From contig NZ_RZJR01000007.1 of NCBI RefSeq assembly GCF_003990975.1, forward strand, positions 187,079 to 251,078: 64,000 bases of DNA, in the 5' to 3' direction. Below, piece after piece: positions 28,474 to 57,071 of this stretch. The first letter of the stretch is position 1; every line of letters begins with the position of its first letter. The position numbers were made by a program, and so were the translations under genes. The notes under the pieces are model-generated. The model was not told the DNA's origin, ran no database searches, and saw nothing but the letters and a program-made list of their open reading frames with translations. Source of the stretch: Cohnella sp. AR92 (GTDB lineage: Bacteria; Bacillota; Bacilli; Paenibacillales; Paenibacillaceae).

Positions 28474-30390
28474 TTAATCGTCCGCCGACTTGATGAATTT
28501 CATATTAATGACGGTAATGACCAGAATGACCGCGAACATGCTGACGCCAAGCGCCGAGGCGTAACCGAGATCGCTGAATTTCGTCGCGGCGTAATACATC
28601 TGCAAGGCGGGCACGTAGGTCGAATCCATCGGACCGCCGCCGGTTACGATCATGATGCCGTTGAAATCCTGAATGATGCCGATGAGGCCGAGTATGATCA
28701 GGAACTTGAATTGGCCGGACAGCATCGGCAGGTGAATGGACCGGATAATTCTCCCCAGCCCCGCTCCGTCCATCTTCGCCGATTCGGTCAACTCTCCCGG
28801 GATGGCCAGCAAGCCCGCATACAGAACAAGCAGCTGCAGGATCCCGATGAACGGAAAGCCGATGAAGATGAGAGCCCAGAGCGCCGTCTTCGGATCGCCA
28901 AGCCAACCGTGCGCCCAGGAGCCGAGTCCGATCAATTGAAGGAAGTTGTTGAACAGACCCATGTTCGGATCATAGAAGTTCTGCCATATGAGCAACCCCG
29001 CCACCGCCGGAATGACCATTGAAGCCGTGAATGCCGTCCGGAAGCCGTACTGCAGCTTCTTGCTGCGCAGGTGGTAGATCAGTTCGGCGACGATAAGCGG
29101 AGGGATGATCGTCTTGATAAGTCCGGTCACGATGAGAATAAGCAGGTTGCCGAAGCCTTTCGTGACGTAAGGATCGTGGATCATGCGCTTGAAGTTGTCC
29201 AAGCCGATGAAGGTCGTCGTTCCGCCGGGCTGCCATTTGTACAAGGAATGGACCAGTCCCGAGAACGCAGGGTAGTACAAGAACACGAAGATGAGCAGGA
29301 AGCTCGGAGCGAGCCCGAGGTAAACCCATTTGGCCTTCCAGATCTCTCTGAAAATGCCCAGCTTGTTGCGTTTCTTCATATAAAGCAGGAGCAGCACGAT
29401 GACCGCGACGGCTGCCGCCGCCAAGGCCGACCACAGGACCGTCTTCCACTTCGCCGCTTTCTCCGCGCTCTTCACGGCGCTGCCGATATCCAGCTTCAGA
29501 ATACGCCCGTCATCCGTTCCCGCGTAGAGGGTTTTGCTGTCCGACGCGAATTCAACCGCGCGCCCCGCCTGTCCTTCCTTCTCTTCCCACAGCTTCTTGC
29601 CGCCCCGATCGAAGATATAGAAGTTCCCCGACAGATCCGCGACGCCCAGCAGCTTGCCGTCTGTCGAGAACGCGACGGCCGAGACGCTGTCCCGGGTGCC
29701 GTAGGCCGTGATCCTCTTGCCTTGGGAATCGAACAGTTCGACCTGATTGGCGTTCGTGCCGACGGCCGTTTCGCCGTCGTTCGTCACGGCGATCGAGGAG
29801 ATTTGCCCCCTGGCTCCGAACTTATGAAGGACCTGGCCGTCTTTGCCGACCAGATGCAAGAACTGGTCCGCCGTCGCGGCGACGATCCATTCCCCGTTCC
29901 CGGATACCCGAACCGACTTCATCACCGTTCCGATGGATGCCGTTCCGGTCTGCTCCCCGGTCTGTCCGTTCACGAACAGGAGCTCGTTGCTCCGCTGAAT
30001 GACGACCGCGATCGCCGAGCCGTCGTTCGAAGCGGACACGCTCTTGACCTGCCGCTTCATATCGGTGTCCCAGCGCGTGTTGCCCGCGGAGTCGTAAGCG
30101 TAGAGATGCCGGTCGTCCGAGGCGACGAGCATCGTCCCGTCATCCAGAAGCACGACGTCGGTAATGACGTTCTTCGCTTGCTTCTCGTACAGGAGCTGCC
30201 CTTCTTGATCGAAGACGACCGCCTTGGAGCCATGAGTTCCGACCGCAAGACGGGTGCCGTCCTCCGAAGCGTTGATGGAGGTAATGTCTCCGGCGCCTTC
30301 GATCGCCCACTCCTTGCTTGCCGAAGCGGCATTCGGTACGAGTCCCAGCAGGAGCAATAATGTTATCAGGATCCAAGGGGTTCTTCTCAT
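28474..30390 (-). CDS. Beta-propeller/MalF-type ABC permease fusion
   Basis: 638 residues (start chosen at the second of two ATG codons; AGGAGG lies 6 bases before it). Residues 1-24 form a signal peptide (RRTPWILITLLLLLGL, cut near ASA). Residues about 37-303 contain seven repeats of about 40 residues, each with an S-x-x-x-S-x-D/N-G pattern and a final L/V-x-D (e.g. SINASEDGTRLAVGT, SVSASNDGSAIAVV, AVAFSTDGKLLGVA), i.e. a seven-bladed WD40/PQQ-like propeller. A membrane segment (318-337) with KKRNK follows, then a complete MalF-like permease (350-638) with EAA loop IPGELTESAKMDGAGLGRII. Topology places the propeller outside the cell. Normal MalF-type permeases lack it. Partners: lipoprotein 30505-32178, permease 27628-28461. 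Confidence 0.92.
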   Translation of the reverse strand: MRRTPWILITLLLLLGLVPNAASASKEWAIEGAGDITSINASEDGTRLAVGTHGSKAVVFDQEGQLLYEKQAKNVITDVVLLDDGTMLVASDDRHLYAYDSAGNTRWDTDMKRQVKSVSASNDGSAIAVVIQRSNELLFVNGQTGEQTGTASIGTVMKSVRVSGNGEWIVAATADQFLHLVGKDGQVLHKFGARGQISSIAVTNDGETAVGTNANQVELFDSQGKRITAYGTRDSVSAVAFSTDGKLLGVADLSGNFYIFDRGGKKLWEEKEGQAGRAVEFASDSKTLYAGTDDGRILKLDIGSAVKSAEKAAKWKTVLWSALAAAAVAVIVLLLLYMKKRNKLGIFREIWKAKWVYLGLAPSFLLIFVFLYYPAFSGLVHSLYKWQPGGTTTFIGLDNFKRMIHDPYVTKGFGNLLILIVTGLIKTIIPPLIVAELIYHLRSKKLQYGFRTAFTASMVIPAVAGLLIWQNFYDPNMGLFNNFLQLIGLGSWAHGWLGDPKTALWALIFIGFPFIGILQLLVLYAGLLAIPGELTESAKMDGAGLGRIIRSIHLPMLSGQFKFLIILGLIGIIQDFNGIMIVTGGGPMDSTYVPALQMYYAATKFSDLGYASALGVSMFAVILVITVINMKFIKSADD

Positions 30391-30460
30391 CATGCTCCTC
30401 CTTGCTTTTGCTTGATCTTCCATATCCATGGTTGCCCGACTCCTTCGTTAAGCCTGAAGG

Positions 30461-30504: not shown

Positions 30505-32178
30505 TTACTTGCGTTCCGGCGGTCTGCTCTCCGGCGTATCCAGGTCGGACAGCTCCTTCTTGCCTTGCTTGAGCATCGGCTCGAGATACTTGTCGACGTT
30601 GGCTTGAAGCTCGTTCAGATACTGCTCCGTCGTGATCTTGCCTGCGAAGAAGCGCTGTACGCTGCCTACCCAATCCTGAACGGACGGCTGATAATCATTC
30701 AGGCCGCGTGCCAGCTTGTTGCCTGCGCTCTCGTAGCCCTCCGTGTTGCCGATCGGCGTAAAGTCTGCGAATGCGGCCGTCATATCAGCCGGCAGGGTGA
30801 TGTCCTTAAGCGCAGGCGCTCCCGACAGGGATGCATCCTTGCTGTTCTGAATCGCCTCGGCGTATACCTTATAGCCTTCCGGACTGGTCACATACATCAT
30901 GAAGTTCATGGAAAGCGCGTTTTGCTCGGCGTTCTTGCTGACGATGCCATAGAAGCCGATCGGAATCTGGATCGTGCGTGCCGGAGCCTTCACTTCCGGT
31001 CCTTGCATCGAAGGCATGTTGAAGAATCCATATTCGAACGCCTTCACGCCTCCCTGAGCGCCCGTCTTGGTCTCATCGGCGAAGTCCTTCGGCAGCTGCC
31101 AGTACGAAGCCGGGGTGGAGACCATCGTCGCCGCCTTGCCCGTAAGGAACAGCTGGTAAGCTTGGTCGTCCTTCACTCCGAAGAATCCGTCCGGCGTATA
31201 AGAGAACAGCTTCTTCAGATTGTCCGCATAAGCGGCCCAAGCCGGGTTGCCCGCGATCTTGTAAGGACCTTCCTTGTCCCTAACGGCCTTCCATTGGCGA
31301 ATCTCGTTCTTGGTGACGTTGCTGTTCGAGTCGTTGTACGGATCCGTCGGGTCGTACTTCCATATATCGTCGACGCCCGGCAGGAACGTATAATCCTGTT
31401 CTTGGGAACGAATGACATTAATATAATCGCGGAGGTATTGGTCGGCATAGATCCGCACCAGCCAGCCGGCTTGGTTGCTCCACATCGAGTTCGCGTCTCC
31501 GGCGAGCGCCAGCGGCGTGAAGCCGGCTGCCTTAATCTTGTCGAAGTCGGCGGTCAGTTCGTCAAATGTCTTAGGCGTCTCCGTGATGCCGACCTTATTG
31601 AAGATCTCCTTGTTGTACATCCAGACGATTTGAACGGATTCGAAATTCAGATTGTACAGGTGGTCTTCCGTGCCGACTCCGTCCAGGTTGATGCCCATCG
31701 CCGCCAGATCGAGCGAATCCTTCCACGGCTTGCCGGTGTACGGATTCACTTGGTCGAAATAAGGGTAGTAGTCGACGAACTTCTTATCCGACATCAGGTT
31801 CGCCACTTCGTTGTTGACGATCAGGTCGGCGTCAGGCGTTCCCGCCGCGAATTGAGCCGTCAGCCATTCCTTATAGCCTTCCAGCGGCTTATTGTCTACG
31901 TTGACCTTTACGCCGGGGTTCCTCTTCATGTACGCGTCCGCTACCGAATTCCAGACGGAAGACGAAGCGTTCGGCAACGAGATGTTGATGGTCCCCTTCA
32001 GTTCGGGCGCGGCCGATTCGGATGGGCTCGCGGAAGGGCTTGCGGATTCGCTCGGCGTGCCGGAAGCCGAATTCGAAGCGCTCGGCTCGGCCGTGTTATT
32101 GTTGTTGCTGCACGCCGCAAGTACGGACGTGGCCATCAGAGCGCTAAAGAGCAATGCCGATCTTTTTCTGATTGTCAT
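30505..32178 (-). CDS. CUT1 ABC transporter sugar-binding lipoprotein (long form)
   Basis: 557 residues. Signal peptide with lipobox L20-A-A-C23, so the protein is lipid-anchored on the outer membrane face of the cell. A Ser/Ala/Pro-rich linker (about 25-60) leads to an extracellular-solute-binding family 1 fold (WNSVADAYMKRNPGVKVNVDN, PLEGYKEWLTAQFAAG, LALAGDANSMWSNQAGW). It is over 100 residues longer than usual members. AGGAG precedes the ATG. First gene of the operon with permeases at 28474 and 27628 and the GH78-like enzyme; a cre box and AAGTATACTT-type operators lie upstream. Ligand unknown, likely a rhamnose- or uronate-containing oligosaccharide. Confidence 0.92.
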   Translation of the reverse strand: MTIRKRSALLFSALMATSVLAACSNNNNTAEPSASNSASGTPSESASPSASPSESAAPELKGTINISLPNASSSVWNSVADAYMKRNPGVKVNVDNKPLEGYKEWLTAQFAAGTPDADLIVNNEVANLMSDKKFVDYYPYFDQVNPYTGKPWKDSLDLAAMGINLDGVGTEDHLYNLNFESVQIVWMYNKEIFNKVGITETPKTFDELTADFDKIKAAGFTPLALAGDANSMWSNQAGWLVRIYADQYLRDYINVIRSQEQDYTFLPGVDDIWKYDPTDPYNDSNSNVTKNEIRQWKAVRDKEGPYKIAGNPAWAAYADNLKKLFSYTPDGFFGVKDDQAYQLFLTGKAATMVSTPASYWQLPKDFADETKTGAQGGVKAFEYGFFNMPSMQGPEVKAPARTIQIPIGFYGIVSKNAEQNALSMNFMMYVTSPEGYKVYAEAIQNSKDASLSGAPALKDITLPADMTAAFADFTPIGNTEGYESAGNKLARGLNDYQPSVQDWVGSVQRFFAGKITTEQYLNELQANVDKYLEPMLKQGKKELSDLDTPESRPPERK

Positions 32179-36071: not shown

Positions 36072-37805
36072 TCATTCTAATCTGTCGTCCGGGTTCTCTT
36101 CGTCCCGGATCGTATAAACATAGTTCAATCGCCCTTCCGGAGCGGTATCCCCGTATTGATAGAAATCCATGACGTCCCCTTCCGCCAGCAACTGATCCCC
36201 CCACTTGAATTCCAGCCTTTGCTCCCGCCCGGAAGCCTCCAGCCCCAGCAGTTTGCGAGGAATCGCCAGATGCAGCTCGTTCCCGGCGGCTGCGAAGCGA
36301 ATCTCCCCGACGGGCGTCCAATTCCAGCCTCCTTCGCTTCTCTCCAACAGCGTCGACGAACCGTCCTTTACGATGCGGTTCACGATATAAGAGTAACCCT
36401 CCCAGCCTTCGTCCTGCCCTTCGGTTCGAAGGAGCAGCAGCATCCAGTTCGTGTCTGCGCTAGAGGTAAGCGGTTCACGGGTTCTTGCGTAGAAGAAGAT
36501 GTCCTCGGCGGTATGCGCGACCTTGAAAAGCAGCAGTTCGTTGCGCCCGGTTTCGTTCTTATAATGCAGCTCGCCGTATCCCTTATGGTCCCGGGGAATC
36601 GTATCCCCGTCGCAGTCCCGATACTCCGCTCTTACCCGCTCCCAATCTCCGAATTCCGCTGCGATCGGGATGGGGCGCTCGAGATGATGGCCTTGGGCAC
36701 CCGGATCGTCCATTCCTTTGAAGCGACGGATATACGAGATCAGCTGCATGTAATAGTTGTCGTTGTAGCCGCCCTTCATCGGCTCGATATCCCGGCTGAA
36801 GTTCAGCGTCGCCTGATCGACGAACAGCACCGGCCTCTCCGGCGGCCCCGACAGCCTCATGGCGATCCATTCGTTCCAGCCCGTCACGAACACGATTCGC
36901 GGATCCTCGGAGAGCGCGAACTCCCATTGCTCCGCCACGTTGGTCCCTCGGAGAATGTCCTCCGGCAAGTCCCCTCGCGCGTTCGCGGCGTCCGAGCGAT
37001 AGCCGCGCCCCCAGTTATCGCCGTATCCATAGAACGGCGTATCGCTCATCGCGATGCTAGGGTGCTGGGCGACCGACACGCTGATAATCTCCTTCTCGCC
37101 CTCGTCGTTATAGAAGACGCGCTGCGGGCGCTGGAATTCGATCCAAGGGAACCCGTTCGTCTTGGCGGCTTCGTTAGGCCACTGATTGAGCCGGAACGTG
37201 AAGAATTCCCTCTGCTCCTCGGTGCATTCGGCCGGATCGCCGATGATGAGGGGCTTGCCGCGCCAACGGAACCAGAGATGCTCGTAACGCCCGGGCTTGT
37301 AAAGGTCTTCGTAGAGCTCGCCGATCGTCTTGCCGGATTCGGTATTGGTATAGAAGACGAATCGCGGAACGCGGAAGCCCTGCGCATCGATCTCGTCCAT
37401 GATCGCGAACAGCTTGTCGTAGACATTCTTGTAAATAACGGCGTTGGTCGTATCGAACACGAGAAAGTCGACTCCGGCCGCGGTCAGAAGCCGAACGTGC
37501 CTGCGCAGCACCCACTCGTCGTCGTTCCGATAATAGCCATGCAGGGGCTCTCCCCAGAAATGAAAGGCTTCCGCCGGTCCCCACGCTTCATGCCCAGGGT
37601 CTAAAGCCGCTTCCGGCCAATTCGACAGGATCCGCGTATTGTCGTAAGGCCCGCCCGTTCCGTGCTGGCCTAGCCAAAGGAAATAGAAGAGTCCGACATG
37701 GCGATCCGGGCGAGCCGGCCCGGCTTCCTCTCTCGTCGGCAGCATTCGCCCAAGGCCATCCACGCCGCCATATGATTCATTCCGATATAGGCGTTCTTTC
37801 CGCAT
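36072..37805 (-). CDS. GH71/99-like glycosidase with C-terminal sandwich domain
   Basis: 577 residues. The first 350 residues look like a (beta/alpha)8 barrel: VGLFYFLWLGQHG, HVRLLTAAGVDFLVFDTTNA, FYTNTESGKTIGELYEDLYK, and VFVTGWNEWIAM, which matches the W-N-E region of GH99/GH71-type enzymes and of polysaccharide-associated relatives. A beta-sandwich with EDIFFYAR, RTEGQDEGWEGYSYIVNR follows. The exact reaction is unknown; endo-acting mannan- or glucan-type activity is possible. No signal peptide is visible. AAGGGGAAGG precedes the ATG. Upstream AT-rich DNA carries a 9/10 operator match. Confidence 0.65.
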   Translation of the reverse strand: MRKERLYRNESYGGVDGLGRMLPTREEAGPARPDRHVGLFYFLWLGQHGTGGPYDNTRILSNWPEAALDPGHEAWGPAEAFHFWGEPLHGYYRNDDEWVLRRHVRLLTAAGVDFLVFDTTNAVIYKNVYDKLFAIMDEIDAQGFRVPRFVFYTNTESGKTIGELYEDLYKPGRYEHLWFRWRGKPLIIGDPAECTEEQREFFTFRLNQWPNEAAKTNGFPWIEFQRPQRVFYNDEGEKEIISVSVAQHPSIAMSDTPFYGYGDNWGRGYRSDAANARGDLPEDILRGTNVAEQWEFALSEDPRIVFVTGWNEWIAMRLSGPPERPVLFVDQATLNFSRDIEPMKGGYNDNYYMQLISYIRRFKGMDDPGAQGHHLERPIPIAAEFGDWERVRAEYRDCDGDTIPRDHKGYGELHYKNETGRNELLLFKVAHTAEDIFFYARTREPLTSSADTNWMLLLLRTEGQDEGWEGYSYIVNRIVKDGSSTLLERSEGGWNWTPVGEIRFAAAGNELHLAIPRKLLGLEASGREQRLEFKWGDQLLAEGDVMDFYQYGDTAPEGRLNYVYTIRDEENPDDRLE

Positions 37806-37923: not shown

Positions 37924-39642
37924 CTAAGCAGATTCGACCTGCTGGAGCATCTCCTTATAAACCGTCGCGGAAGCCATCAGGCTGTCATGATCCCCTTGCT
38001 CCACCAAGCGGCCTTGCCGAAACACGCAGATCATATCCGAGTTGCGGATCGTGGATAAGCGGTGAGCGATCACGATGGTTGTCTTGCCCTTGCGAATCTC
38101 GTCGAAATGGCGCTGCACTCTGCGCTCCGTCTCCAGATCGAGAGCGGACGTCGCCTCGTCGAGAATGAGGAGTTCCGGATTGTCGAGCACGGCTCTCGCC
38201 AGCGCGATCCGTTGGCGTTGCCCGCCGGACAGGGCGATGCCCCGCTCGCCGATCTCCGTGTCATACCCTTTCTCAAGGGAGACGATGAAGTCGTGAATAT
38301 CGGTGAGCCTGCAGGCGGCCTCGATCTCCTCTTGGGTCCGTTCCTCCGAGCCCAGATTCAGGTTGCTGCGGATCGTATCCGGGAACAGGAAGGGATTCTG
38401 GAAGACGATCGACAGCTTGCTCCCCCAATCCTCTCTCTTGTACTCTCGCAGATCCCTGCCGTTAACCGCGATTTGACCGGCATCCGGATCGTAGAATCGG
38501 ACGAGCAGCTGGGCGATGGTCGATTTGCCGCTGCCGCTCGGTCCGACGAACGCGACTTTGCCTCCGATCGGAATGGTCATGCCGACGTCTCGCAGGATAG
38601 GCTCCGGCTGTCCCTTGTAGCGATAGGTTACGTTCGCCAGCTCCAGGGAGCGAATCGGTTCTCTCAGCTCCGTATCCCCGTCTTCGATCGTCTCCTGCTC
38701 CAGATAACCCCGAAGCGCTTCGATCTTGGCCATGTACATCGAGTAGCTAAGGGCGAATAAGTAGAGTTGCTCGTATTTGTCCATCAGTTGGCGGGAGAAC
38801 TGGAAGACGACGACGAACGCCCCGAGCGTCAACGACCCTTGCAGCGCGCAATACCCTCCGTACAGCAGGATGAACAGGTTCATTCCCCACTTCAGCGGGT
38901 GGCTGACGACCATCTGGCGGTTGAGCAGTTGCCCTTCCTCCAGCACGTTGCGAAAATACTTATCGAACAGCGATCGGTACGTCGAGGTCTCGTAATCCAA
39001 GCGATGATAAGCGAGAACTTCCCGAGTGGAAGATACTCCCTCCTCGAGGAAGACGCCGACTTCCCGCCGGGTGTCGTTGACCCGGTGCGCGGCCCGCTTC
39101 AGCTTCTTGCCGTAGCGGTAGCCGAGGATCAGGTAGCAGCAGCTGAACAGGACGACGAAGAGCAGGATGACCGGGCTGTACCAGCCGACAACAGCCATCA
39201 GGGCAATCGCTGGAACGATCTGGAAGAAGCCGTTCGGCAGTTGAAGGCCGATGCCGATCGCGGACAGGAAGACGTAATCGTTCATCACGTCCACGTACTT
39301 GGACGTTCTCTCGTTCTGAATGGAGGAGGCGGGAATCCGCTGCAGGAACCGGGCGGCTCTCTCGAACAAGGAATAGCGAATCCGGAACAGGATCACGTGG
39401 AACAGATAGCCGATTCCGGTTAGCGTCGCGGATTGAAGCAGCGCCGCGGCGAGGAAGATAACGAGCAGCAGGGCAAGCCGACCTCCTTCCCCGTGGAGGA
39501 AGACGTTATCGATCAACCGCTGCTGCACGCCCGTGGAAACAAGCTGAGCGGCGAGCTGGACGATCAGCATCAGCAAGCAGACAAGATATAAGGCGTAATG
39601 AGGCCTCGCCACGCTGCGAATGAACTTGAAGTTGTCTCTCAT
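37924..39642 (-). CDS. ABC exporter subunit (fused membrane and ATPase domains)
   Basis: 572 residues. Six membrane helices in residues 15-300 (LmrA/MsbA-type exporter fold) and a nucleotide-binding domain with Walker A GPSGSGKST, Q loop in VFQNPFLF, signature LSGGQ, Walker B LLILDEATSALD and H loop IAHR. All catalytic residues are intact. It overlaps the next exporter gene by 4 bp and is the second gene; the two probably form a heterodimer. Substrate unknown: a peptide, lipid or drug. Between two glycan-use operons but no operator is seen at its own start. Confidence 0.9.
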   Translation of the reverse strand: MRDNFKFIRSVARPHYALYLVCLLMLIVQLAAQLVSTGVQQRLIDNVFLHGEGGRLALLLVIFLAAALLQSATLTGIGYLFHVILFRIRYSLFERAARFLQRIPASSIQNERTSKYVDVMNDYVFLSAIGIGLQLPNGFFQIVPAIALMAVVGWYSPVILLFVVLFSCCYLILGYRYGKKLKRAAHRVNDTRREVGVFLEEGVSSTREVLAYHRLDYETSTYRSLFDKYFRNVLEEGQLLNRQMVVSHPLKWGMNLFILLYGGYCALQGSLTLGAFVVVFQFSRQLMDKYEQLYLFALSYSMYMAKIEALRGYLEQETIEDGDTELREPIRSLELANVTYRYKGQPEPILRDVGMTIPIGGKVAFVGPSGSGKSTIAQLLVRFYDPDAGQIAVNGRDLREYKREDWGSKLSIVFQNPFLFPDTIRSNLNLGSEERTQEEIEAACRLTDIHDFIVSLEKGYDTEIGERGIALSGGQRQRIALARAVLDNPELLILDEATSALDLETERRVQRHFDEIRKGKTTIVIAHRLSTIRNSDMICVFRQGRLVEQGDHDSLMASATVYKEMLQQVESA

Positions 39643-41438
39643 CGGATAGCCTCCTCTCCGAGCGGGGGCTCGCCCATGGCTAACCGGTAGAAAAGCCCCT
39701 GCCGATTCATTAGCTCCTCATAGGTGCCCTCTTCCCGGATGCGCCCTTCATGAATGAATAGAATGCGATCGTAATTGCGGATCGTGGAGAGACGATGGGC
39801 GACCGTTACCGTCGTTCGTCCTTCCAGCAGGCGGTCGAGCGCCTCCTGCACCGCCCGTTCGCTGACGTTGTCGAGCGCCGAGGTCGCCTCGTCGAGAATG
39901 ACGATCTTGGGGTCCCGCACGAACATTCGGGCGATGGAGAGCCGCTGCCGCTGCCCGCCGGACAGCTTCGCGCCCCGTTCCCCGACTACGGTGCCGTAGC
40001 CGTTCGGCAGATGCATGATAAATTCGTGAGCCATGGCCGCCCGCGCCGCCTCGAACACCTCCTCGTCCGTTGCCGAAGGGTTGCCGAAACGAATGTTGTC
40101 CATGACCGTCCCTCCGAACAAATACGTCTCCTGGAACACGATTCCGATGGCGCCGCGAATTTGTTCGAACGTCAGCTCCTTGAGGGACACCCCGTCAAGC
40201 AGCACCTCCCCGTCGTCCGGATCGTAGAACCTCGGGATCATTTTGAGCAGCGTCGTCTTGCCATTGCCGCTCTCGCCTACGAGAGCCACCTTCTCTCCCG
40301 GCCGAATGACGGTATCGATCCCGTTCAGAATAGGAGAGCCGCCGGGGTAACCGAACGTCAACCGGCGAAACGTCAGCTCTCCGCGAACTTCCGCCATCTC
40401 CCGAGGCGCGCTCGGCTCTTGGATGTCCGGCTGCTGAATGGCGAAGCCGTGCAGCCTGGAGGCATGCAGGAGCACGGTCTTCTGCTGCGCGAAGCTGGAT
40501 AGCAGGTTCATATAATGGCCGACCGCCAGAAAGAAGTAGAAGTGGAAAGCGATGAACTCTCCGACGGTAAGCTCTCCGCCTCTCACGAGATGATAGCCGT
40601 AAAGAAACATGAGAGCGGCGCCGCCGAAGATGCAGAATAGTTGAAAAGCAAAAGCCAGGTACGCGAACAAGAGATGCCTTAAGTGAACGGCTTGAAGCTC
40701 TCCCAGCTCTCCCAGCAATCCCCGCAGCTTTCTCTCGGAGGTATTGCGCACGCGAAACTCCAGCGTTGCCGAGACAAAGTCATACGCCCTTCGCCCCACC
40801 TGCCCTTGCAGGCGGATCCATTCGCTGTCGAGCATCGAGCGCTTCGCATTGAGGAAAGGACCGAACAAGGTATACAGAAGCAAGGAAGGGACAAGCACCA
40901 GGCTAAGCTTCGGACTGGTGACGATAAGGAAGCATGCGGAGATAAGCATGATCAGGGAGCTCGTAAAGGCAAGGGGGAGAAATTCGCGGTAGAAGGTCTG
41001 CACGCGCTGCACGTCGTGATTGAGCAAAGTGACCGCATCTCCGGATGGAGACCGCTCGTAATAGGAGAAGCCCAACGTCCGCAGATGCCGGAAAACGGAG
41101 AACTGCATATCCGACGACGCCCTCTCGCCGATATATCGTTGGACATAGGTGACGACCCAGGAGGCTCCGACCAGCAGCGCGAGGACGATCAGCATCGTCA
41201 TGGCGATATAAGCGAGCAAACCCGTCTCCTTGCGAGGATAAATGGTATCCGTGAAGTATTGAAAGGCTTGAGGAACGGCCATCTCGGATGCCGCGACTCC
41301 AAGGCCGCAGACGATCATAATCGCAAGCTTGGCTCCGTAGGGACGGAGAAAAGACAGCATCCACCTCACGATCCGAAGCTGGCCGCTTCGTCCTCGTCGT
41401 CTTCTCCTTTTGCTCGTTCGTTCATATGCGATTTCCAC
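39639..41438 (-). CDS. ABC exporter subunit (fused membrane and ATPase domains)
   Basis: 599 residues with an N-terminal basic patch (SKRRRRRGRSG), six membrane helices and a complete ATPase: Walker A GESGNGKTT, LSGGQ, Walker B IVILDEATSALD, H loop VAHR. Partner of the 37924-39642 subunit with 4-bp overlap; both ATP sites look active, unlike many heterodimers with one degenerate site. Start is GTG at 41436-41438 with AAGG 6 bases upstream. It is separated from the 1325-residue gene by a terminator at 41471-41524, so it needs its own promoter or read-through. Confidence 0.9.
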   Translation of the reverse strand: MEIAYERTSKRRRRRGRSGQLRIVRWMLSFLRPYGAKLAIMIVCGLGVAASEMAVPQAFQYFTDTIYPRKETGLLAYIAMTMLIVLALLVGASWVVTYVQRYIGERASSDMQFSVFRHLRTLGFSYYERSPSGDAVTLLNHDVQRVQTFYREFLPLAFTSSLIMLISACFLIVTSPKLSLVLVPSLLLYTLFGPFLNAKRSMLDSEWIRLQGQVGRRAYDFVSATLEFRVRNTSERKLRGLLGELGELQAVHLRHLLFAYLAFAFQLFCIFGGAALMFLYGYHLVRGGELTVGEFIAFHFYFFLAVGHYMNLLSSFAQQKTVLLHASRLHGFAIQQPDIQEPSAPREMAEVRGELTFRRLTFGYPGGSPILNGIDTVIRPGEKVALVGESGNGKTTLLKMIPRFYDPDDGEVLLDGVSLKELTFEQIRGAIGIVFQETYLFGGTVMDNIRFGNPSATDEEVFEAARAAMAHEFIMHLPNGYGTVVGERGAKLSGGQRQRLSIARMFVRDPKIVILDEATSALDNVSERAVQEALDRLLEGRTTVTVAHRLSTIRNYDRILFIHEGRIREEGTYEELMNRQGLFYRLAMGEPPLGEEAIR

Positions 41439-46664: not shown

Positions 46665-47561
46665 CTAGTACTCGACGTTGCTGCCTAAATATTTGAACTG
46701 CACGACGGAGATCAATCCGATGACGACGGCCAGAAGGACTCCCATCGCGGCGGCAACCCCGAAGCTTCCCAGCATGAAGGCTTGTTCGTAGACTCCGTAC
46801 ATTACGGTGGAAGTCGCATACATCGGGCCGCCGGAAGTTAGCAGCTGGATAATGGCGAACACCTGGAAGGTGCTGATCGTCGTCATGACGATCACATATA
46901 GATTCGTCGGCATCAGCATCGGCCAGATGATCCGGCGGAAGATCTGCCCGGAGGAGGCGCGGTCGATCTGGGCGGCTTCGATATAGGAGGCGGGAATATT
47001 GCCGAGGGAAGCGACGTACAGAATGATCGGCTGGCCGACGGATGTCGTGATGAGGACGAGCACGATGGCCAGAAGGGCCGTCCGGGTATCCCCGAGCCAA
47101 GCGATGGGCTCCAGACCGAACAGGCTGGTGACATAGTTCAATATTCCGAAGTTCGGATCGTAGATCATGGCCCAGACGACGGTAATGCTGACAACGGAAG
47201 AAACGACCGGCAGGTAGAAGATCCCCCGGAATAGGGAGCGCAGGAACTCCGGTTTCTTGTAGATGTTCATCGCGACGAAGATGGAGAATAGAATGACGAG
47301 AGGAACCGCGATGACGACGATCAACATGGTATTTCTCATCGAATGAAGGAAATTCTCGTCGTTCAGCAGGTAATCGTAATTCCGCAAACCGACGAATTCG
47401 AATTTGTTGAGCGTGTACGTGAAGAAGCTGATGTAGACTCCTTTGACCATCGGATAAGCTACGAACAGCAGAAAGAATCCAAGCGCGGGAAGCAGGAACA
47501 GGTAACTGGTCAACCAGTCGCGCTTGATATAAGGACTCGTCTTGCGCAAGGCTGCGAACAT
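46665..47561 (-). CDS. CUT1 sugar ABC transporter permease (MalF type)
   Basis: 298 residues with six membrane segments (YLFLLPALGFFLLFVAYPMV first), KGVYISFFTYTLNKFEFVGL and EAA loop PASYIEAAQIDRASSGQIFR; the usual A-x-x-D-G-A reads A-Q-I-D-R-A here. Ordinary length, i.e. no propeller extension, which sharpens the contrast with 28474-30390. AAGGGAAG precedes the ATG. Second gene of the operon. Confidence 0.93.
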   Translation of the reverse strand: MFAALRKTSPYIKRDWLTSYLFLLPALGFFLLFVAYPMVKGVYISFFTYTLNKFEFVGLRNYDYLLNDENFLHSMRNTMLIVVIAVPLVILFSIFVAMNIYKKPEFLRSLFRGIFYLPVVSSVVSITVVWAMIYDPNFGILNYVTSLFGLEPIAWLGDTRTALLAIVLVLITTSVGQPIILYVASLGNIPASYIEAAQIDRASSGQIFRRIIWPMLMPTNLYVIVMTTISTFQVFAIIQLLTSGGPMYATSTVMYGVYEQAFMLGSFGVAAAMGVLLAVVIGLISVVQFKYLGSNVEY

Positions 47562-56199: not shown

Positions 56200-57071
56200 T
56201 TATCCTTGAACAGCGCTCGAAGTTGCGGCACCGACAGCAGCAGCGTAATGACGAACATGATGACCCCTACCGCGGAGGCAATGCCGAGCTGGTTGTACTT
56301 GAAGGCATTGTTGTACAGGTAATACATCAAGGTCACGGAAGCGTTGTTCGGTCCGCCGCCCGTCAGCATCTGAATGACGACGAAGATCTTGAGCACGGCG
56401 ATGATGTTGATGATCGTAATGTAGATCGTGGTCGGCTTGACCAGCGGGATGAGAATCCGGAAGATCACCTTCAGGCGGCTTGCCCCGTCGACCTCCGCGG
56501 CTTCGAAGAGATCCTTGGGAACTCCGATCATGGATGCGATGTACAGGATGATCGCTTGCCCGACGTTCGTCGCGAAGGTCACGAAGATGACGACGGGAAG
56601 CACGAGCTTCTTATCCCCGAGCAGGTTGACGGTGCTGAGATCGAGCTGTCTGGCCGTGAACGAGATCAAGCCGTTGGCGGGATTCAGCAGGAAGCTCCAT
56701 ATCATGCTCATGACGACCATGGAGACCATGACGGGAATATAGTAGCTCCCCCGGATGAACGAGACGTACTTAGCGTTTTTATCAAAAACGGCCGAAGCGA
56801 CGAACAAGGAGAAGATAACCGTCAGCAGGACGATAAAGACGACGAAGACGACCGTATTGCCGACTGCCTTGAAGAAGATCGGATCGCTGAACAGAGCCGA
56901 ATAGTTGTCGAAGCCGACAAAGGTCTCCTTCTGGAACTGAACCTTGTAGAAGCTGAGCCGGATGCCTTCGATTATCGGATAGACGATAAACAGGAGAAAC
57001 AACAGCGTCTGAGGCAGAATGAACAGATACCCGGTGAGATTCTCTTTGAGATAAGGATTGCGCAATTTCAT
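56196..57071 (-). CDS. CUT1 ABC permease (MalF type), sialic acid operon
   Basis: 291 residues with six membrane segments (NLTGYLFILPQTLLFLLFIV first) and EAA loop PKDLFEAAEVDGASRLKVIF. Ordinary MalF length without extra domain. 4-bp overlap with the MalG gene; preceded by the binding-protein gene with a stem-loop between. Confidence 0.92.
   Translation of the reverse strand: MKLRNPYLKENLTGYLFILPQTLLFLLFIVYPIIEGIRLSFYKVQFQKETFVGFDNYSALFSDPIFFKAVGNTVVFVVFIVLLTVIFSLFVASAVFDKNAKYVSFIRGSYYIPVMVSMVVMSMIWSFLLNPANGLISFTARQLDLSTVNLLGDKKLVLPVVIFVTFATNVGQAIILYIASMIGVPKDLFEAAEVDGASRLKVIFRILIPLVKPTTIYITIINIIAVLKIFVVIQMLTGGGPNNASVTLMYYLYNNAFKYNQLGIASAVGVIMFVITLLLSVPQLRALFKDK

Follow-up and report, generated by a model that had tools for sequence, protein, structure and literature searches.

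Within a 64,000-nucleotide stretch of DNA from Cohnella sp. AR92, referred to below as the window, one gene was found to encode a seven-bladed beta-propeller and an ABC transporter permease of the CUT1 (MalF) type in a single polypeptide. Both halves are of known kinds; their combination, with the propeller at this position in the chain, is new as far as was searched, and the fusion was not described in the open-access literature searched, which omits most subscription journals. The propeller is predicted to act, tethered to the membrane, as a module on which the cognate solute-binding lipoprotein docks or hands off its cargo, a tentative assignment that we rate at somewhat less than an even chance.

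The fused gene (minus strand, 30390 to 28474, stop codon included) runs through its 638 codons in a single frame without interruption, as the initial annotation had stated, and the good ribosome binding site noted at the chosen start was found as described (AAGGAGG, 30403 to 30397 on the minus strand, 6 bases before the ATG at 30390). The initial annotation had given no strand. An alternative in-frame ATG at 30429 would give a protein of 651 amino acids. Hydropathy placed membrane segments at residues 7 to 25 and 318 to 336 and six further regions in the permease core. At position 24, 39 of the 46 proteins of the main clade, as distinct from the divergent fusions described below, have Ala, six have Gly, and one has Glu; by the A-x-A rule of signal peptide cleavage, the main-clade N terminus looks like a cleavable signal peptide.

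Table 1. Positions in the window of the fused gene, its parts, and its neighbors
Feature	Positions	Strand	Basis
Fused gene, 638 aa: signal peptide, seven-bladed propeller, stalk/extra membrane helix, MalF-type permease	28474-30390	minus	
Signal peptide, residues 1-24, A-x-A type end	30319-30390	minus	predicted
Seven-bladed WD40/PQQ-type propeller, residues 26-301	29488-30315	minus	AlphaFold2, PDB matches, Pfam
Asp93-Arg94, B-C loop of propeller blade 2	30109-30114	minus	face away from membrane (inferred)
Helical stalk and extra membrane helix, residues 302-342	29365-29487	minus	AlphaFold2 and hydropathy
MalF-type (CUT1) permease core, residues 346-638, six hydrophobic regions	28477-29355	minus	BPD_transp_1, PDB 2r6g_F
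EAA loop, residues 536-555 (ESAKMDGAGLGRIIRSIHLP)	28726-28785	minus	read from sequence and alignment
MalG-type partner permease, 277 aa	27628-28461	minus	Pfam, NCBIfam
Six-hairpin alpha-rhamnosidase-like enzyme, 720 aa	25443-27605	minus	Bac_rhamnosid6H; PDB 3cih, 2okx
Solute-binding lipoprotein (SBP_bac_1), 557 aa, upstream partner	30505-32178	minus	Pfam
GntR-HTH and LacI-type sensor regulator, 374 aa	32413-33537	minus	Pfam
GH78-type alpha-L-rhamnosidase-like enzyme, 802 aa	33651-36059	minus	Pfam
Secreted-looking DUF5722 protein, 1325 aa	41549-45526	minus	Pfam, 496.8 bits (query without last residue)

Propeller repeat families scoring above their Pfam cut-offs included WD40 (46.9 versus 27 bits) and PQQ_2 (48.4 versus 27.6 bits), with the best stretches between residues 35 and about 322. 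In the C-terminal half, BPD_transp_1 matched residues 441 to 628 (38.8 bits versus a cut-off of 26.4) and the core matched E. coli MalF (PDB 2r6g_F) at an E value of 1.4e-12; the best NCBIfam matches, UgpA, GlcT, and MalF, were all under their cut-offs. Among the matches listed, no Pfam or NCBIfam model covered the whole propeller-permease arrangement. Residues 536 to 555, which we take to be the motif between late membrane helices that is called the EAA loop, include E536, D541, G542, A543, L554, and P555 as invariant positions in a 26-row alignment. Hydropathy, Pfam, and alignment agree on the extra membrane helix and the MalF-like permease with an EAA loop that had been read from the letters. 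With BPD_transp_1, the EAA loop, a MalG-type partner and a solute-binding protein in the operon, and a MalK-type ATPase in the genome, the protein has the features of the CUT1/MalF type.

AlphaFold2, run on an 18-row alignment from which three loci (L044, L058, and L060) were excluded, gave a propeller with a pLDDT of about 92 (block means of 81 to 96 over residues 31 to 300). Its 28 strands correspond to seven blades of four, the strand of residues 26 to 29 completing blade 7, and a closed ring of this kind together with repeat matches over the cut-off is characteristic of WD40/PQQ-type propellers. The initial annotation had proposed a seven-bladed propeller and staked it on structure prediction; the prediction did give one, in accord with the PDB and Pfam matches. 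One helix follows (residues 302 to 340), where confidence drops to 41 to 71, and the permease half was poorly modeled from a shallow alignment (pLDDT below 50 from residue 344); the identity of that half as a permease rests on sequence. The nearest folds among the PDB structures covered (Foldseek, VIA) were seven-bladed WD40-type propellers, natural and designed. The designed protein 7big matched the propeller model with a TMt of 0.90 and an rmsd of 2.0 (VIA Z 38.4 over 278 residues), and many WD40 protein-interaction scaffolds were among the nearest folds listed.

In the strand order of the model the chain joins blade 7 where the outer strand begins and departs where the third strand ends, which places both chain ends on the A-B/C-D face. 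Because both ends lead to membrane segments, the A-B/C-D face should look to the membrane and the B-C/D-A face outward. By topology the propeller is predicted to lie outside the membrane, in line with the earlier proposal. Conservation of the loops did not differ between the outward and the membrane face when all residues were counted (0.561 versus 0.538, p 0.43). The outward face was the more conserved when glycine was left out (0.558 versus 0.485, p 0.035) and when G, D, N, and P were left out (0.544 versus 0.447, p 0.007), exclusions that were chosen afterwards. Asp93 and Arg94 stand out on the predicted outward face. Position 93 is Asp in 54 of 56 fused proteins and position 94 is Arg in 52, with Gln in two, Phe in one, and one gap in a broken copy, whereas the matching motif in 28 propeller proteins without a permease (from weakly matching loci) has Gly at 38 and Arg at 5 of 92 positions. 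The Arg of blade 2 is retained in all eight divergent fused loci.

A whole-protein search of the genome itself returned 55 permease matches, some of them MalG-type or partial, only one of which, the fused gene, aligns over the propeller; it was also the sole match in propeller searches of that genome. The other MalF-type permeases of the window (46668 to 47561 and about 56217 to 57029) have no propeller, and the genome searches confirm that the other two CUT1 permease pairs of the window lack one. The description of the propeller as system-specific holds in that it is unique in its own genome, but it is not confined to this organism, forming a conserved clade in one order. A single OB_MalK match was found in this genome, on another contig (G000:C26:4069-4239, L219; open frame of 374 amino acids), compared with the 55 permease matches and 71 matches to SBP_bac_1.

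The search for this domain order among bacterial permeases that the initial annotation had proposed found the fusion in 18 of 37 genomes of the genus (20 matched the propeller, two of them weakly via unrelated proteins) and in 39 genomes of the family. Twenty Cohnella and Paenibacillus loci match the fused protein, most over nearly its full length; in the single-ORF comparison L058 and L060 matched partially and L044 was split. With a 26-row profile, 40 of 394 family genomes, from 5 of 19 genera, matched at an E value of ≤1e-15, and at the fetched loci the fusion was present, whole, split, or divergent, in 39 of these, the source genome included; the 40th (G370) had contig-end pieces only and was left out of the fused count. 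In the order, 23 of 392 genomes matched at an E value of ≤1e-12, 22 of them fused (one as a broken copy) and one (G483) unfused, and in the phylum the source genome matched among 398, along with three genomes with unrelated repeat proteins. A broader 12-row profile gave strong matches (E ≤ 1e-33) in 17 of 236 genomes of the order and, among 199 of the phylum, in the source genome alone. No fusion was found outside the order in these phylum samples of 398 and 199 genomes, which as samples do not prove absence there.

Weaker propeller matches, many in open frames of 600 to 800 amino acids, were considered as further fusions and rejected: they are repeat proteins, and no permease was found at the 12 and 16 loci inspected, three further weak places being left out. 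With the 12-row profile, ten weakly matching genomes of the order had no permease at one locus each, and six of the phylum had none beside the propeller. Weak matches to the first profile in G316, G505, and G516 were true divergent fusions. Plasmid records gave 18 weak propeller matches only, none annotated as a permease. A split version, with a stand-alone propeller beside an unfused relative, was not found in the fetched loci; the single candidate, L154, proved to be a piece of a fused gene that is broken. At both L139 and L154 the fused gene and several neighbors are in broken frames, which looks like sequencing error or decay.

A permease-domain search of 296 genomes of the order returned, besides close relatives, permeases 35 to 47% identical, seven of which lie in frames of 649 to 685 amino acids. 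These seven and L162 (48%, from the family search) carry an N-terminal propeller, only 14 to 21% identical to that of the window in the seven of eight that were aligned. The divergent fusions (L155 to L162) begin with an apparently uncleaved membrane anchor where the main clade has the cleavable-looking signal peptide, and it seems that the fused family has altered the way in which its propeller is anchored. One genome (G010) has three fused paralogues (L135, L136, and L137), each with its own solute-binding protein and MalG partner and with different neighboring genes.

A tree built from the permease part of 87 proteins separated the 56 fused ones from all others by a single branch (bootstrap 98, SH-aLRT 90), and the fused or unfused label required one change, a value as low being reached in none of 500 shuffles. 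The unfused rows were a selection, namely 22 loci fetched from among those of the permease-domain search, 35 to 46% identical over that domain, and 9 paralogues from the source genome. The broken L139 and L154 were kept in the tree and in the Arg94 count and excluded from the conservation, distance, and dN/dS counts. Because the 56 form one supported clade, drawn among unfused relatives in a tree rooted at its midpoint only, the simplest account is a single fusion that was retained thereafter. In 13 usable pairs, not all independent and with one of the 14 saturated in the propeller, dN/dS was 0.04 to 0.23 for the propeller and 0.01 to 0.08 for the permease; the propeller is maintained by purifying selection. 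Mean distances (1.58 for the propeller versus 0.54 for the permease core) indicate that it evolves about three times faster.

In all 55 fetched fused loci (47 main clade, 8 divergent), the gene immediately upstream, in the same orientation, encodes a homologue of the solute-binding lipoprotein. Under a strict gap rule, 49 of the 55 have a MalG homologue immediately downstream; in the remaining six it adjoins the fused gene in the same orientation, in frames that are longer and overlap. Other neighbors were counted mostly within about 10 kb on each side, and the counts are lower bounds. A relative of the regulator (at least 40% identity) was present in at least 38 of 47 main-clade and 2 of 8 divergent loci. 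The GH78-type enzyme was found in at least 35, the DUF5722 relative in at least 25 (within the stretches fetched), and the six-hairpin enzyme in at least 17 of the 47 main-clade loci. Because the six-hairpin enzyme and the GH78-type neighbor resemble alpha-rhamnosidases, the main-clade neighborhood points to a rhamnose-containing glycan as a candidate substrate.

Two other neighbors are of interest. The 577-amino-acid protein at 36072 to 37805 matched nothing in Pfam, NCBIfam, or the PDB sequences at the thresholds applied. Relatives occur in 16 of 47 main-clade loci, and the protein may be a new enzyme belonging to this glycan locus. Between its gene and that of the DUF5722 protein sit two ABC exporter-type half transporters (ABC_membrane plus ABC_tran, 37927 to 41438), odd in an uptake locus. 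The term DUF5722 was not found in the open-access literature searched.

The co-occurrence with GH78 and DUF5722 genes that had been suggested for the fusion holds for the main clade, where one or more of the four window enzymes (GH78-type enzyme, six-hairpin enzyme, 577-amino-acid protein, and DUF5722 protein) occur in 44 of 47 loci, but fails in the divergent clades, where they occur in none of eight. The unfused permeases nearest by identity and by place in the tree (L163, L164, and L166, their place weakly supported at 89/28) have at their loci a six-hairpin enzyme 48 to 49% identical, solute-binding proteins only 25 to 28% identical, and no propeller. Both observations argue that the propeller goes with the transporter and its solute-binding protein rather than with the enzyme set, as far as sequence comparison can tell.

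The lipoprotein had been called unusually long and a possible partner of the propeller. Its length is not special, because 16 of the 71 SBP_bac_1 matches in the source genome, this one included (open frame of 567 amino acids), have open frames of at least 550 amino acids. A model of it, made to seek an extra docking domain, had a pLDDT of 49. In the genus, the lipoprotein was matched at an E value of ≤1e-200 in 18 of 37 genomes, exactly the 18 with the fusion, with 21 binding-protein genes to 21 fused genes; three more distant homologues (31 to 33% identical) occupy other places in three of the 18. A 52-row tree put the 32 binding proteins of fused systems on one side of a branch (SH-aLRT 99); the tree was made by a quick method with long-branch warnings, 24 fused loci, many but not all close relatives, were excluded beforehand, and 2 of the 22 unfused loci had no binding-protein match. 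L044 was excluded from the binding-protein alignment. On the sequence evidence, the linkage of the fusion to one lineage of binding lipoproteins is constant. Distance matrices for 39 systems did not single out the binding protein: partial correlations with the propeller were 0.35 for the binding protein, 0.44 for the permease, and 0.50 for the MalG partner, and that for the binding protein was 0.05 once the regulator was added as a control.

In the mechanism that we propose, the fused protein would be the MalF-side subunit of a CUT1 oligosaccharide importer, and its N-terminal membrane segment and extra helix would present the WD40-type propeller outside the membrane, raised on a short helical stalk next to the translocation pore. 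The propeller would serve as a docking or hand-off platform for the cognate lipoprotein with its bound oligosaccharide, and docking may raise the local occupancy of the binding protein or check its loaded state. In function it would thus resemble the P2 domain of MalF, from which it differs in fold and in position along the chain. Transport would run on the one MalK-type ATPase found in the genome search. Retention of the upstream binding-protein gene while the enzymes change was counted for docking, as were the matching occurrence of binding protein and fusion in the genus, the grouping of the binding proteins in their tree, the distant binding proteins of the nearest unfused permeases, the position of both chain ends on one face, the conservation of the outward face without glycine, the near-invariant Asp93-Arg94, the likeness to WD40 scaffolds, and the single OB_MalK match; a shared fold shows no function, and adjacency of binding-protein and permease genes is by itself no proof of contact because it is usual in CUT1 operons. 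The distance-matrix result, the face test with all residues, and the quick binding-protein tree were counted against it. We lean weakly toward a role intrinsic to the transporter.

The main rival of docking is that the outward face is a glycan-binding site that would gather or pre-sort a polymer or a long oligosaccharide close to the binding protein, like a carbohydrate-binding module fixed to the transporter, which is possible though on the whole unlikely. The rhamnosidase-like enzymes and the secreted-looking DUF5722 protein of main-clade operons would suit glycan binding, and so would the conserved polar residues of the outward face. However, the window enzymes are missing from the divergent fused loci, every one of which keeps the blade 2 Arg, and a constant Arg beside varying enzymes fits a constant partner better than varying glycans. 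Moreover, the unfused relatives beside a related enzyme have no propeller. Rather improbable is a structural role, in which the propeller would aid folding, assembly, or stability of the permease, or cell-wall spacing, with no specific ligand: its faster evolution and the description of the Pfam PQQ_2 model by the assembly factor BamB agree with such a role, but the 54 other permease matches of the genome (some MalG-type or partial) do without a propeller, and Arg94 is kept across clades whose propellers have diverged so far. That the propeller senses extracellular polymer or the state of the binding protein and alters transport across the membrane is improbable. Propellers on bacterial membrane kinases exist (PDB 7dxn and 7eq5, by their molecule names), but the usual main-clade regulator is a DNA-binding protein of the GntR/LacI type that has a small-molecule sensor domain of its own, and no cytoplasmic output domain other than the permease was seen in the fused protein. 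An annotation, assembly, or frame artefact joining two genes, including the break between propeller and permease against which the initial annotation had cautioned, has a negligible likelihood, because the 20 Cohnella and Paenibacillus loci match the protein mostly nearly end to end, many independent genomes have the same continuous frame, and both halves are under purifying selection.

The fused protein resembles E. coli MalF (MalFGK2-MalE, PDB 2r6g) in having a MalF-type core and a large domain predicted to be extracytoplasmic. The P2 domain of MalF is not a propeller and lies between two later membrane helices, whereas the propeller comes ahead of the six-helix core and is flanked by the signal segment and the extra helix; taking P2 at that position, no P2-type domain is inserted within the membrane-helix core of the fused protein. 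Titles in the reference lists of PMC3328499 and PMC3150292 indicate that MalF P2 interacts with the binding protein. Ordinary CUT1 permeases (UgpA, GlcT, SugA, and AlgM1) share BPD_transp_1, the EAA loop, and the pairing with a MalG-type partner and a binding protein but have no N-terminal propeller. WDR5, RACK1, G-beta, the designed WRAP proteins, and BamB-like seven-bladed propellers have the same fold and repeat pattern; among the matches listed, no WD40/PQQ-type propeller is described as part of a transporter, whereas here one is fused to a transporter and would be placed outside. The kinase of 7dxn and 7eq5, known to us by molecule name, likewise carries a propeller on a membrane protein but belongs to signaling rather than transport.

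An extension of the docking proposal, more speculative and clearly short of even chances, is that this importer lineage evolved its own permease-borne receptor, in which the propeller would capture the loaded lipoprotein or the polymer at the pore through the outward Asp93-Arg94 site. If so, the permease-borne propeller would be an independent Gram-positive counterpart of MalF P2. It would also be, as far as we know, the first transporter role for an extracytoplasmic WD40-type propeller. To our knowledge, it is little understood how the lipid-anchored binding proteins of Gram-positive bacteria find the right permease, one ATPase perhaps serving dozens of systems. A permease with a conserved outer domain, together with related permeases that lack it, offers a natural experiment on docking and specificity.
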